Positions 55,944-61,496 of a DNA stretch of 64,000 nucleotides are shown piece after piece. The notes under the pieces were generated by a model, which was given only the letters and a program-made list of their open reading frames with translations, did not search any database and was not told where the DNA came from. A program made the translations under genes and the position numbers. The stretch is taken from contig NZ_WJIE01000002.1 in the NCBI RefSeq assembly GCF_009649845.1, forward strand, positions 744,001 through 808,000, written 5' to 3'. This DNA is from Polyangium spumosum (GTDB lineage: Bacteria > Myxococcota_A > Polyangia > Polyangiales > Polyangiaceae). Numbering within the stretch: position 1 is the stretch's first letter; every line of letters starts with the position of its first letter.

Positions 55944-56453
55944 ATGACCGAAGACTTCACCTTTCGCCTCATCCGCCCCGAGGACGACCCTGCGGTCGCC
56001 GCCGTCATCCGCGCCGTGATGCCCGAGTTTGGCGCGGACGGGCCCGACTTCGCCATTCACGACCCCGAGGTCTCGGCGATGAGCGCGGCGTATGCCGGGC
56101 CTCGCTCGGCTTATTTCGTCGTCGAGATGGGCGGGCGCATCGTGGGCGGCGCGGGGCTCGGTCCGCTCGAGGGCGGCGACGCGGACACGGCCGAACTCCG
56201 CAAGATGTACTTCTTGCGCGAGGCGCGCGGCAAGGGAATGGGCGAGCGCCTGCTCCGGCACGTCCTCGACGTGGCCGCGCGCGAGCGCGGTTATGCCCGG
56301 GTCTACCTCGAGACGCTCACGGGCATGGATTCTGCGATGCGCCTTTACGAGCGCCTCGGCTTTCGCCGCCTCGATCGCCAGCGCGGGTGCACCGGACACC
56401 ACGGCTGCAATCGTTTCTACATGCTCGATCTGGTCCCCGCCGTGACCAGTTGA
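55944..56453 (+). CDS. GNAT-family N-acetyltransferase
   Basis: A 169-residue acetyltransferase with the acetyl-CoA loop EARGKGMGERLLRHVLDVAA and a C-terminal MRLYERLGFRRLDR motif. The final 20 residues carry Cys and His pairs (CTGHHGCNRF), suggesting a small metal site. The substrate is unknown. It begins 22 bp after the hydroxylase FAD subunit, so it may be part of that transcript. Confidence 0.85.
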   Translation: MTEDFTFRLIRPEDDPAVAAVIRAVMPEFGADGPDFAIHDPEVSAMSAAYAGPRSAYFVVEMGGRIVGGAGLGPLEGGDADTAELRKMYFLREARGKGMGERLLRHVLDVAARERGYARVYLETLTGMDSAMRLYERLGFRRLDRQRGCTGHHGCNRFYMLDLVPAVTS

Positions 56454-56479
56454 GGGCGCGAACCAAGGCTGCTCCTGAC

Positions 56480-56509
56480 TTGCTTTTTCCGAAGCTGGGG
56501 GTCTTTACT
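56480..56509 (+). promoter_or_regulatory. Promoter giving a possibly leaderless transcript
   Basis: TTGCTT (56480-56485), 18-bp spacer, TTTACT (56504-56509). The expected start of transcription coincides with the ATG at 56516. The five G's before the -10 could pair with CCCCC before the ATG, so an ordinary leader would also be structured. Confidence 0.35.
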
Positions 56510-56515
56510 TCCCCC

Positions 56516-57439
56516 ATGAACGGTCTTCGAGCCCTTCCCCTCGCCTTCTTGCTCGCCATGGGCGCCGTCGCGTGTGGCGCGCCCCCGCCCGAGCCCAATA
56601 TCGCCTCCTCGGCGACGCAGCCCGGATACGCCCAGGATTATCCGGCGGCGATGCAGCAAATCGTCAAGGATTTCGGCCGCGACGACGATGACTCCCGCAC
56701 GCTCTCCTCGGGTTTTTCCCAGTACCCGCAGGGCCTCAAGGCCCCCGACTGGAGCGTCGTGGGCGACATTCACCGCAGCGCGGACGACGCGGGCCGGAGC
56801 CGCGCGTACGTCGACCGCACCCGCGAGGTCACGGGCGCGGCGGCGTTCTTCGCGGCCGAGCAGGACGAGATCGTCAAGAAGGTCGCCGGCTCGGCCACGT
56901 ACGCGGCCAAGCAAAAGGGCTGCGAGGCCGACCTCTCGGGCGTCGTCGCCAAGTCCCTCGAGGACTCCGTCGACAAGCAGCTCGAGAAGCGGCTCCGCGA
57001 GCGGAACGAGGCCCACGCCATCATCGACCGGCACCGGACCCAGCTCGGCAAGGAGGACGCGGCGACGCTCGAGGAGCAGGCCGACCAGATCAGCCGCGCG
57101 AGTTACCTCGTGCACATCGCGATGGTCGAGGAGAAGGTGCGCCTGCGCGCCCTGCTCGAAGAAGCGGAGCAGGTGAAGAAGACGCTCGACGATTACATCA
57201 CCCGGGAGCGCGCCTCGCAGGGCCAGGGCAAACCGGCGGATCAGAAGGCGAGCGAGGCCCGGATCACGCGCGCCCAGGAGAGCAAGGCGCAGATCGACAG
57301 CGCGCTGACGCAGGGCCGCGAGATGGAGCCGAAGATGGAGGAGCGGATCACGGCCGCGCAGAAGCGGCACGCGGACGCGATGACGGCGCTGCTCGCCGAC
57401 GTGGACAAGCGGGCGAAGGACGCGGGGCAGAAAAAATAA
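56516..57439 (+). CDS. Lipoprotein with long coiled-coil region, unknown function
   Basis: A 307-residue protein with a signal peptide and lipobox (GAVAC). After a short linker it is almost all charged helix (LEDSVDKQLEKRLRERNEAH, RLRALLEEAEQVKKTLDDYI), consistent with coiled coil. It contains no enzyme motif. It may be a periplasmic spacer or envelope-tether protein. It is followed by a strong hairpin. Confidence 0.8.
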   Translation: MNGLRALPLAFLLAMGAVACGAPPPEPNIASSATQPGYAQDYPAAMQQIVKDFGRDDDDSRTLSSGFSQYPQGLKAPDWSVVGDIHRSADDAGRSRAYVDRTREVTGAAAFFAAEQDEIVKKVAGSATYAAKQKGCEADLSGVVAKSLEDSVDKQLEKRLRERNEAHAIIDRHRTQLGKEDAATLEEQADQISRASYLVHIAMVEEKVRLRALLEEAEQVKKTLDDYITRERASQGQGKPADQKASEARITRAQESKAQIDSALTQGREMEPKMEERITAAQKRHADAMTALLADVDKRAKDAGQKK

Positions 57440-57531: not shown

Positions 57532-57750
57532 ATGCCCTCGTTTTTCCCGTTCCCCGGTCCTGGAAACGTCCTCCCCGAGGCCCCCGCGGCCCAAGACGCG
57601 GCGGAGGAGCCGCTCGTCCCCGCGCCGCGGCCTGCGCGCGCCGATCCCACGCTCGACTCCACCCCGCCGCCGCCGAGCGGAATGGTGGACCTCGCGTGGG
57701 ACGACACGCAGCCGATGAGCGTGATCCGTTTTCGCCCGGAAAAGCCCTAG
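57532..57750 (+). CDS. Small Pro-rich protein, unknown function
   Basis: A 72-residue protein, mostly disordered, with a final segment SGMVDLAWDDTQPMSVIRF. AGGAGG lies seven bases before the ATG, the best evidence that it is real. It overlaps the stop of the convergent PYP-like gene by 4 bp. I recognise no family. Confidence 0.5.
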   Translation: MPSFFPFPGPGNVLPEAPAAQDAAEEPLVPAPRPARADPTLDSTPPPPSGMVDLAWDDTQPMSVIRFRPEKP

Positions 57751-58274
57751 AGAACCCCCGCAGAGGGCGCGTGTTCGCTCGGCGCTGCGTCCTCTGCGCC
57801 GCCCTCGCCCTCGGCCACCTCGGCGACCGGGCGGCGCACCACGGTCATGAAGAGCCGCGCTGCCGTCCCTACCTGCTCGAGCGGCTGCGTCATCACGGGC
57901 GGCGCCTTCACGAACTGCACGGCCACGTCCTGCGCGCCGTGCAGGAAATAAAACCGGAAGCGGAAGCCCTCCTCCTGGCGGGCCTCGTCCTGCACGAGCG
58001 CCCGGAAGCGCCCGTAAAACGCCTCCACCCGCGTGCAAGGCGCGACCTCCGTGAAGAAGTTTTTCCCGACGACCCGCTCGGGGGGCAGGCGCGAGAGCTC
58101 CGATTCGTAGCGGTTGTAAAGCAGGATCGTACCTACCTCATCGAGGACGACGAACCCGTAGGGCAGCTCGTCGACCTCCTCCTTCGACATGGCCGCGAGA
58201 CGCTCGATCGCGTCGAGCGCGCCGTCCTCCGACACCATGGGGGCCTGTACGGCCGTGACCAACTCGCTGCTCAA
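57747..58274 (-). CDS. Photoactive yellow protein (PYP)-type PAS photosensor
   Basis: A 175-residue soluble PAS protein. Residues 47-90 align without gaps to PYP of Halorhodospira halophila (from memory). Tyr53 and Glu57 stand for Tyr42 and Glu46, and Cys80 in KNFFTEVAPCT stands for the p-coumarate-binding Cys69. Thr50 is Ser61, and Arg52 is Leu63. About half of those 44 positions are identical. The protein should be able to bind p-coumaric acid and respond to blue light. A C-terminal acidic Ala/Glu tail follows residue 148. The TTG start overlaps the TGA of the DUF4388 gene (TTGA) and has GGGAGGT upstream. No coumarate-synthesis gene is nearby. Confidence 0.88.
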   Translation of the reverse strand: MSSELVTAVQAPMVSEDGALDAIERLAAMSKEEVDELPYGFVVLDEVGTILLYNRYESELSRLPPERVVGKNFFTEVAPCTRVEAFYGRFRALVQDEARQEEGFRFRFYFLHGAQDVAVQFVKAPPVMTQPLEQVGTAARLFMTVVRRPVAEVAEGEGGAEDAAPSEHAPSAGVL

Positions 58275-59083
58275 CGGACACCTCCCTCTCGCATTCGGAA
58301 CGCCTCACCCCATCCCCCCTTGTCGAGCAGTCGCATCAGGCCCCCGAGCATCTCGGGGACGTAATACCTCTGGAAATGCGCCGCGTTGAACATCGAGCCC
58401 GCCTCGAACACCGCGAACACCCACGCGGCCACCGCCCTCGGGATCGCCGACCTCGCCCGCTCCACGCCCGCCACCATCACCAGGCCGTCCGCCGAGATCC
58501 GGAACGCGTCCATCGCCGGGTGCGCGGCCGCCGTGCGGGACCAGGCCGTCTGCATGATCGAAGACGCGAGCTTCGGCCCCAGCCATTTGCGCGTGTAGAT
58601 CGAACACGCATTCATCACGGCCGCGGCCAGCGCCACCTCGGTCGCGTTTCCCTCCAGCATCGCCGGGCGCAGCGACACGGGTGGCCTCTCCGACGACGGC
58701 GGGCGCGGCGGCGGCGTCGACCCGCGCTCGTCGAGCGCGATCACGTCGAAGACCGCCTGGCGGAAGCACCGGATGGCCGTGAGCGCGACCTCGGCGTCGG
58801 CCTCGGTGGGCAGATCGTCGACCCGGGCGCGTACCACGCGCCCTCGCTCCAGCATGACCTCCCCTCGCCGCCTGAGGGCTCGGACCTCCACGACACACGT
58901 CCGGCCTCGGGAGCCCAGGGAGCCGAGCAGATCGTCGAGCCCCACCTCGTCGAGTTGACCTCGAAGGATCAGCCGACCCCGCGCGCGCTCCGAGGACACG
59001 CCGGCCCGATCGGCCGACCACGCGGCGTCCGTCCCTCCGAGCCACGCTCCTCCCCCGTCCCCAGGGGCCGCGTTGTCGAACAT
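58271..59083 (-). CDS. DUF4388-domain protein, partner of the PYP-like protein
   Basis: A 270-residue protein. An N-terminal DUF4388 region (RLILRGQLDEVGLDDLLGSL, GEVMLERGRVVRARVDD) is typical of myxobacterial signalling and motility proteins. A Pro-rich linker leads to a helical C-terminal domain (ALAAAVMNACSIYTRKWLGP, AWVFAVFEAGSMFNAAHFQR) that I do not recognise. GGGAG precedes the ATG at 59083; the one at 59113 falls inside the promoter. Its stop overlaps the PYP start, so the two are made in step and likely interact: light sensor and output. Confidence 0.82.
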   Translation of the reverse strand: MFDNAAPGDGGGAWLGGTDAAWSADRAGVSSERARGRLILRGQLDEVGLDDLLGSLGSRGRTCVVEVRALRRRGEVMLERGRVVRARVDDLPTEADAEVALTAIRCFRQAVFDVIALDERGSTPPPRPPSSERPPVSLRPAMLEGNATEVALAAAVMNACSIYTRKWLGPKLASSIMQTAWSRTAAAHPAMDAFRISADGLVMVAGVERARSAIPRAVAAWVFAVFEAGSMFNAAHFQRYYVPEMLGGLMRLLDKGGWGEAFRMREGGVR

Positions 59084-59104
59084 GAGCACTCCCTTCCTTC
59101 TCTT

Positions 59105-59135
59105 GTTGTACATGGTTCGTACAACGTTTGGTCAG
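59105..59135 (-). promoter_or_regulatory. Promoter and operator of the PYP/DUF4388 operon
   Basis: GTTGTAC (59105-59111) and GTACAAC (59119-59125) form a perfect dyad with a 7-bp centre. On the minus strand CTGACC (59135-59130) and TACAAC (59110-59105) are -35 and -10 candidates, 19 bp apart. The dyad spans the spacer and the -10. A 19-bp spacer with a dyad in it is the MerR-family promoter layout. TTGTAC half-sites resemble those described for B12-dependent CarH/LitR light regulators, from memory. Confidence 0.5.
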
Positions 59136-59250: not shown

Positions 59251-59643
59251 CTACTCCTTCGTGTGGCCGAGCGTCGGGTCGAGGGCCTTCCGGAGGGCCT
59301 CGTCCCGCGCGGCGCGGGCGTGCCTGCGGCTCTCCAGGAGCGACTCGACCGCGAAATTCGCCTCGATGTCGTCCGCGAGCTCGTCCGCCGCGATCCGCGC
59401 GATCGCCTCGAGCCTCGACCCGAGCCGCGCCCGCAGCCGCTCCTTGATGGCGTCCTTCAGAATCTCGCGCGCCGCCGCGCGTGTCAGCGCCTCGGCCTCG
59501 CTGTAGAGCACCTTCGACACTTCGAGGTCGAGGAAGCCCGTGTCCTTCGGCCCCTCGGCCCGGCGCCCTCCGCCGTGCCCCTCGTCGCGCCGCTCGTGCC
59601 GCTCGCCCTGCCCCTCGGGCCCGTCCCTGCGTTGATCCTGCAT
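59251..59643 (-). CDS. Small charged helical protein, unknown function
   Basis: A 130-residue protein. The first 35 residues are a disordered Gly/Glu/Arg/His-rich tail. The rest is one or two long amphipathic helices (ALTRAAAREILKDAIKERLR, IARIAADELADDIEANFAVE). It has no signal peptide and no recognised domain. It lies between the TerB gene and the PYP operon on the same strand, with a hairpin after it. Confidence 0.65.
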   Translation of the reverse strand: MQDQRRDGPEGQGERHERRDEGHGGGRRAEGPKDTGFLDLEVSKVLYSEAEALTRAAAREILKDAIKERLRARLGSRLEAIARIAADELADDIEANFAVESLLESRRHARAARDEALRKALDPTLGHTKE

Positions 59644-59704: not shown

Positions 59705-60088
59705 TCAGAGCAGGTTCATGTACTTCTTGGCGCGATGCTCGGCGGCCTCGACGATCGCCTTCGCCTCCGGCGCCTCGATCTCCAGCCGGCCGCAGAGATC
59801 CTCGACGAACTTCTTCTCGCTCTCGTGTTGTTCGCCGTCGACGTACGTGAGCAGCACGGCGTGCTGCAGCAGCACGCGGCGGTCATCCATCGACATGTCC
59901 CAGACGGGGATGTCGTCGAGCGTCTTCTTCTCGGCCGCGTACGCGCGGATCTCGGCGGCCTGCTCCTCGGTCGCCTCGAACGCGGAGATGAGCGCCTCGA
60001 CCATCTCGCGCTCCTTCGCGTCGAAATGGCCGTCGGCCCACGCCACGCTGACGAGCGACTTGACGATCCCCATGTTCTCTTCGCGCAT
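59705..60088 (-). CDS. TerB-family (tellurite resistance/DjlA-like) protein
   Basis: A 127-residue helical domain of the TerB type: SLVSVAWADGHFDAKEREMV with acidic residues typical of its metal site, and the second half-repeat AVLLTYVDGEQHESEKKFVE. Solo TerB proteins are widespread and of unclear role; tellurite resistance is a family name, not a demonstrated function. A TTGACG lies 32-37 bp upstream of its ATG as a possible -35. It is divergent from the VOC gene. Confidence 0.85.
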   Translation of the reverse strand: MREENMGIVKSLVSVAWADGHFDAKEREMVEALISAFEATEEQAAEIRAYAAEKKTLDDIPVWDMSMDDRRVLLQHAVLLTYVDGEQHESEKKFVEDLCGRLEIEAPEAKAIVEAAEHRAKKYMNLL

Positions 60089-60575: not shown

Positions 60576-61496
60576 ATGAGCCTCTCCCACCAGCGCCACC
60601 GCTTCGTCGCCCGCCCGGAGGACGCCGGGCAGAGGCTCGACCAGGTCCTCGCCGCCAACGTCCCCGGCCTCTCGCGCCGCAAGGCCCGCGTCGCCATCGA
60701 CCTCGGCGGCGTCTTCGTCGACGGCGCCCGCGTCAAGGTCGCCGGCCGCGCCATCAAACCCGGACAAACCATCCTCGCCCACCTCGGCGGCGCGCTCGAC
60801 CGGGCGACCAAGGAGGTCGGCGCCGCCGCCCGCGCCAGGGACGAGAAAAACCTCCCGCCCTTCCGCGTCGTCCACCAGGACGAGGACCTCGTGGTCGTGG
60901 ACAAACCCTCCGGCCTCGTCACCGCGCCGACGCCGGAGAGCGACCGCGGGAACCTCGCCGACCTGCTCGGCCGCGCCCTCGGCGGCACGATCTACGTCGT
61001 CCACCGCCTCGACCTCGACACGAGCGGCCTCGTCGTCTTCGCGCGGACCGAATCCGCGAACCGCGCCCTCTCCGATCGAATTCGCGCCCACGATTTCGAT
61101 CGTGTCTATCTCGCGGCGCTCCACGGCCACGTCCCCTGGGACGAGCGCACCATCGAGGAGCCCGTCGCCGGCAAACGCGCCATCTCCCACGCCGCCGTGC
61201 TCGAGCGCCTCTCTCCGCCCGGCTCGCCCGGCGTGACGCTCACCCGGTTCCGCCTCACGACCGGCCGCACCCACCAGATTCGCCTGCACGCGCGGCACGA
61301 GGGCCACCCCGTGCTCGGCGATCGCAAATACGGCAGCCCGAGCCCCGTCGATCCGCCGCGGCTCGCGCTCCACGCCACCCTCCTCGGATTCGTGCACCCG
61401 CGGACGGGTGAAGCACTCTCCTGGGAGAGCCCGTGGCCCGACGACCTCGCGACCTGGCTCGAAGGGGTACGCGGCGCCGCGCCTCCTCCTCGTTGA
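60576..61496 (+). CDS. RluA-family rRNA pseudouridine synthase
   Basis: A 306-residue enzyme with an N-terminal S4 RNA-binding region (AGQRLDQVLAANVPGLSRRK) and a catalytic domain with the active Asp in HRLDLDTSGLVVFAR. RLTTGRTHQIRLHARH and VLGDRKYG also match RluA/RluC/RluD. Which uridines it modifies cannot be told from sequence. Confidence 0.93.
   Translation: MSLSHQRHRFVARPEDAGQRLDQVLAANVPGLSRRKARVAIDLGGVFVDGARVKVAGRAIKPGQTILAHLGGALDRATKEVGAAARARDEKNLPPFRVVHQDEDLVVVDKPSGLVTAPTPESDRGNLADLLGRALGGTIYVVHRLDLDTSGLVVFARTESANRALSDRIRAHDFDRVYLAALHGHVPWDERTIEEPVAGKRAISHAAVLERLSPPGSPGVTLTRFRLTTGRTHQIRLHARHEGHPVLGDRKYGSPSPVDPPRLALHATLLGFVHPRTGEALSWESPWPDDLATWLEGVRGAAPPPR

Follow-up and report, generated by a model that had tools for sequence, protein, structure and literature searches.

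The window, the whole stretch of 64,000 nucleotides analysed here, comes from Polyangium spumosum (contig NZ_WJIE01000002.1, positions 744,001 to 808,000 of the forward strand) and carries near its end a gene of the photoactive yellow protein (PYP) family (Table 1). The TTG start codon has GGGAGGTG just ahead, a good ribosome-binding site, and overlaps the stop codon of an upstream gene whose product contains a DUF4388 domain. Two further genes on the same strand, encoding a protein of unknown family and a TerB-like protein, may belong to the same transcription unit, while a small convergent open reading frame reaches into the end of the PYP gene.

Table 1 Features of the PYP locus (positions in the window)
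Feature	Position	Strand	Description or basis
Small convergent ORF	57532..57750	+	72 aa; stop overlaps the end of the PYP gene
Deletion scar	57726..57797	.	72 nt encoding most of the acidic tail; comparison with related Polyangium
PYP-family gene	57747..58274	-	175 aa, TTG start; PYP domain approximately residues 19-150
Cys80 codon	58035..58037	-	PYP Cys69, chromophore thioester in PYP; alignment and sequence
Glu57 codon	58104..58106	-	PYP Glu46, proton donor in PYP; alignment
Tyr53 codon	58116..58118	-	PYP Tyr42; alignment
Translational junction	58271..58286	-	GGGAGG ribosome-binding site; PYP TTG start overlapping upstream TGA stop; shared with four other Polyangium loci
DUF4388-type gene	58271..59113	-	280 aa, PF14332 at residues 51-128; proposed signalling partner
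Gene for protein of unknown family	59251..59643	-	130 aa; possibly same transcription unit as the PYP gene
TerB-like gene	59705..60088	-	PF05099; possibly same transcription unit as the PYP gene

An earlier note, made from the DNA letters alone, had proposed a PYP homologue with intact chromophore residues, and sequence, profile and predicted fold all place the protein nearest to PYP. Searched with phmmer against the sequences of the PDB, it returned significant E-values from PYP entries only (1mzu, 2.2e-17; 1gsx, 2.3e-15; Halorhodospira halophila PYP, about 1e-14), and the alignment is ungapped over residues 19-94, which spans the stretch 47-90 that the note had aligned. The NCBIfam profile for photoactive yellow protein, TIGR02373, matches with an E-value of 8.1e-24 and 84.1 bits, below its equivalog cut-off of 143.05 bits, and on this score we file the protein as a PYP-family member rather than a TIGR02373 equivalog. 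That cut-off is passed in only 1 of 284 Myxococcota genomes, over which the scores split cleanly into PYP-like (at least 47 bits) and weak PAS-like matches (at most 35 bits); the existing PYP profile has been reported to have low coverage, recovering 20% of the homologues that BLAST detected (PMC9664959). In the AlphaFold2 model, most of the PYP core has a pLDDT above 90, and a structure search with this model yielded PYP or PYP-derived entries at PDB ranks 1-39 (E from 6e-11), the first generic PAS domain appearing only after rank 39 (E 8e-7). By sequence and modelled fold, PYP is thus a nearer match to the protein than other PAS families are, the distinction by which the family is delimited (PMC9664959). 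Since PYP is thought to have originated in Myxococcota, where PYPs are already known (PMC9664959), a myxobacterial PYP is to be expected, and the gene is one more member of a known family there.

The chromophore pocket bears on the alternative that the Cys arose by chance in a generic PAS domain. The Pfam families assigned to the protein are generic PAS only, which fits that alternative; the best Pfam PAS E-value is 1.2e-6, compared with 8.1e-24 for the PYP profile, and a generic-PAS placement is not borne out. Specifically, Tyr53, Glu57 and Cys80 align with Tyr42, Glu46 and Cys69 of PYP, the residues by which family members are recognised (PMC9664959); this alignment was cropped by a Cys-containing core, and no sequence was excluded for lacking the Cys. 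Among the 103 PAS matches in the window's genome, none of the 30 best-scoring other PAS domains has Glu at position 46 or Cys at position 69, in agreement with the note's view that most PAS proteins lack the set. This control, together with profile, sequence and fold, contradicts a chance Cys in a generic PAS domain, a reading that is scarcely credible. In contrast to the control, all 52 myxobacterial PYP-family sequences compared have both Glu46 and Cys69; at position 42, 48 of them have Tyr and four have Phe, and the triad is invariant within the Polyangium clade of the window gene. Judged by its sequence, the gene encodes a true PYP-family member with an intact pocket, and photochemistry of the 175-aa protein is plausible.

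The two substitutions read from the letters, Ser61 for Thr50 and Leu63 for Arg52, were also found in our alignment; the importance attached to the second was not. Leu is the commonest residue at position 52 (27 of 52 myxobacterial PYPs) and the consensus across 984 PYPs (PMC12826048), and therefore is no mark of altered function. Ser at position 50 would be the better tuning clue: both characterised Ser50 PYPs, the only two such proteins known, absorb near 432-434 nm (PMC12826048), which predicts a blue-shifted band, tending to about 434 nm rather than 446 nm. At the position of Met100 there appears to be a His, the most frequent residue at that site in the 52-sequence set, in a loop where the alignment is less sure. 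The window's genome contains a second PYP gene (L002 1396-1839, C1:1336929), which encodes a single-domain protein that keeps Tyr, Glu, Arg and Cys and has Ala at position 50. The other five genomes of the genus yielded no second PYP.

Syntenic orthologues with 76-79% identity occur in four further Polyangium genomes (G002-G005), the nearest named locus being that of Polyangium sp. 15x6 (79%). These orthologues are 325-338 aa long and consist of PYP and a C-terminal domain of about 170 aa, and in at least three of the four genomes a lipoprotein gene separates the PYP gene from its next neighbours. The window has 72 nt in place of about 1.48 kb of the relatives (L042 8160-9636), so that both the lipoprotein gene and the C-terminal domain of PYP have been lost; this deletion is private to the window's genome. 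The acidic C-terminal tail, for which a role in partner binding had been suggested, lies on the scar, has no homologue in relatives and is predicted to be disordered. We rejected it as a conserved element.

These observations raise the possibility that the gene is a decaying remnant, a non-functional PYP stub left when the deletion took its output domain. The new tail and the privacy of the deletion are in line with such decay; moreover, no PYP copy was found in a sixth genome of the genus (G001), which makes the gene dispensable and counts against our main explanation. On the other hand, the deletion has left the reading frame, the start, every pocket residue and the partner-gene overlap intact, and the commonest form of PYP is single-domain (PMC9664959). 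The dN/dS of the PYP domain is 0.25-0.38 between the window gene and its relatives, compared with 0.14-0.24 among the other relatives, and flanking genes (e.g. 56387-57439 and 60576-61496) show a likewise raised ratio on the window branch. Because the ratio is low and the neighbours are similarly affected, the PYP domain is under purifying selection with no PYP-specific relaxation. We therefore regard decay as quite unlikely.

The domain that was lost is likely a divergent V4R-like domain. The window clade forms a monophyletic group in the PYP tree (support 0.94), with the clade of PYP-V4R proteins as its sister (support 0.86); 20 cases of such fusions were reported in December 2025 (PMC12826048). 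Comparison with the V4R domain of these proteins gave 3.6%, which is not significant, for a narrower profile of the relatives' domain; after one more distant member was added, hhalign gave 64% (p 6.5e-5) at a collinear position with this best profile. The predicted order of helices and strands would fit a V4R fold in a weak model (pTM 0.49), with which a structure search recovered only PYP and spurious kinase matches. Pfam did not recognise V4R in the relatives' domain, and a profile search of the PDB with it gave no match. The window's own PYP has no C-terminal V4R domain and is not itself a PYP-V4R fusion.

Several features of the PYP-V4R proteins deserve mention in their own right. In six of them (L018, L020, L024, L025, L103 and L110) the V4R domain retains a Cys-Glu-Cys-Cys pattern; aligned with MopR and DmpR, two phenol sensors, this pattern falls on the zinc site, which suggests that these proteins may sense light and phenolics jointly. 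Five PYP-V4R loci were examined at length, and each has a protein kinase-like gene immediately upstream, in most cases with a 4-nt overlap (L050 8695-10879, L053 8544-10729, L054 8659-10928, L056 9116-12411 and L058 9132-11215); Pfam confirms a Ser/Thr kinase domain in four of them, and in a sixth locus, L110, a kinase motif occurs equally far away. The main texts of two PYP surveys (PMC9664959, PMC12826048) do not mention an overlap between Ser/Thr kinase genes and PYP-V4R genes, and a search of the literature on PYP together with Polyangium or a Ser/Thr kinase returned nothing further.

Tyrosine ammonia-lyase (TAL) and a PYP-type coumarate-CoA ligase (pCL) are a common but not a defining PYP trait, and the pathway was not found in the window's genome, which is 99.7% complete. 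The expectation that the chromophore genes would lie elsewhere in this genome did not hold: a whole-genome search returned a single, HutH-like PF00221 lyase, and for PYP-type pCL (TIGR02372) nothing beyond partial matches, the best of which scored 57 bits where the cut-off is 334.7. This lyase carries the motif NLVRSHACG, with Ser-His, which we take to be typical of histidine ammonia-lyase. Its candidacy as a TAL is unsupported given that motif. General acyl-CoA ligases are abundant in the genome. Among 59 relatives, 18 genomes bear PYP, and 14 of these have exactly one PF00221 member, always of the Ser-His type; two more have Ser-His lyases only, making 16 of the 18 with solely this motif, and the remaining two (G038 and G048) possess a second lyase with a different motif. 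As judged from gene content, the absence of a coumarate pathway here extends from the gene neighbourhood to whole genomes. TAL is rare beside PYP genes in general, at 5% of operons (PMC12826048) or 10% of genes (PMC9664959), and coumarate uptake has been suggested in this literature. In the present case, the chromophore probably derives from external coumarate and a general acyl-CoA ligase.

The same gene content would suit a PYP-fold chemical sensor rather than a light sensor, with the pocket kept for another thioester-forming or redox-active ligand. The sister clade, in which PYP is fused to a V4R domain keeping the zinc-site pattern of phenol sensors, points in the same direction, as does the change from light to redox function proposed for some PYPs by Xing et al. 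(PMC9664959). However, those proposed redox PYPs have substitutions at such positions, whereas Tyr, Glu and Cys are all retained in the window clade, and the general rarity of TAL makes its absence nearby weak evidence. A purely chemical role thus appears unlikely, and we favour light reception.

The DUF4388-type protein is the likely signalling partner of PYP, as suggested by gene order. Its gene shares 4 nt (TTGA) with the PYP gene in each of the five Polyangium loci, the window included; in another genus of the same family (G008), the overlapping letters are GTGA, and the upstream gene has 43% identity. DUF4388 has 14 matches in the window's genome, so the domain as such is not restricted to light sensing. 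The main texts of PMC9664959 and PMC12826048 contain no mention of a DUF4388-type partner of PYP.

Other gene arrangements were observed among the relatives. Coiled-coil PYPs (L047 9754-11938, L051 7957-10285 and L048 8567-10326) follow a gene for a protein of about 340-367 aa with a hydrophobic N-terminus, preceded in two of these loci by a Roadblock/LC7-like gene (weak in L051), with overlaps; the main texts of the same two papers do not describe Roadblock genes before coiled-coil PYPs. Further architectures (L059 824-1459; L032; L030; L049 8540-9673) include MerR-type HTH-PYP, which may act as a one-component regulator controlled by light, as well as receiver-PYP and PYP-histidine kinase. 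Additionally, L028 (G022 contig 449) has a single 712-aa open frame combining a phosphatase domain, PYP and an FxsA membrane protein, which may be a gene fusion or an assembly artefact.

To the family assignment, predicted fold, triad, conserved gene pair, deletion and purifying selection described above, a mechanism can be added by analogy with characterised PYPs, a family also delimited by p-coumarate bound covalently to the Cys and by a blue-light photocycle (PMC9664959). A p-coumaroyl-type chromophore would be bound as a thioester to Cys80 and held by Tyr53 and Glu57; blue light would isomerise it, upon which Glu57 would donate its proton. The changed surface of PYP could then alter its interaction with the DUF4388-type protein encoded by the overlapping upstream gene. 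The window's PYP would have become single-domain only recently, from an ancestor that carried a V4R-like ligand-binding domain as well. We assign a probability of roughly 60% to this reading, in which the protein is a blue-light receptor of the PYP type from a distinct clade centred on Polyangium, with its whole mechanism including the DUF4388-type partner. The missing TAL and pCL genes and the TIGR02373 score below the cut-off weigh against it. A broader and more speculative proposal, which we consider rather doubtful as a whole, is that the clade signals through a previously unreported, translationally coupled DUF4388-type partner, originally combined light with a V4R-like chemical input and obtains its chromophore from no known PYP pathway, the chemical input having been deleted in the window's species so that light alone is left.

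How PYPs transmit their signal is an open question (PMC12826048), for which the clade-specific overlapping partner genes are direct candidates. The natural deletion provides a matched pair in close relatives, PYP alone and PYP with a V4R-like domain. Because most PYP-bearing Polyangiales lack a coumarate pathway, the source or identity of the chromophore becomes testable.

Compared with known systems, the window's PYP shares with H. halophila PYP (PDB 2phy and others) the fold, the Tyr42/Glu46/Cys69 triad and the KNFF..VAPCT core; it differs in Ser for Thr50, Leu for Arg52, a longer loop ahead of the last strand, N- and C-terminal extensions and the lack of a TAL/pCL operon. The best sequence match is the PYP domain of Ppr from Rhodospirillum centenum (1mzu), which likewise has Ser at position 50 and reportedly absorbs near 434 nm (PMC12826048); unlike the window's PYP, Ppr is a PYP-phytochrome-histidine kinase and retains Arg52. 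The PYP-V4R fusions (PMC12826048) form the sister clade, and the window gene's relatives have a C-terminal domain at the same place. This domain, in contrast to that of the fusions, is too divergent for Pfam V4R, has no zinc ligands and is deleted in the window's genome, and the partner gene of the window clade is of the DUF4388 type rather than a Ser/Thr kinase.
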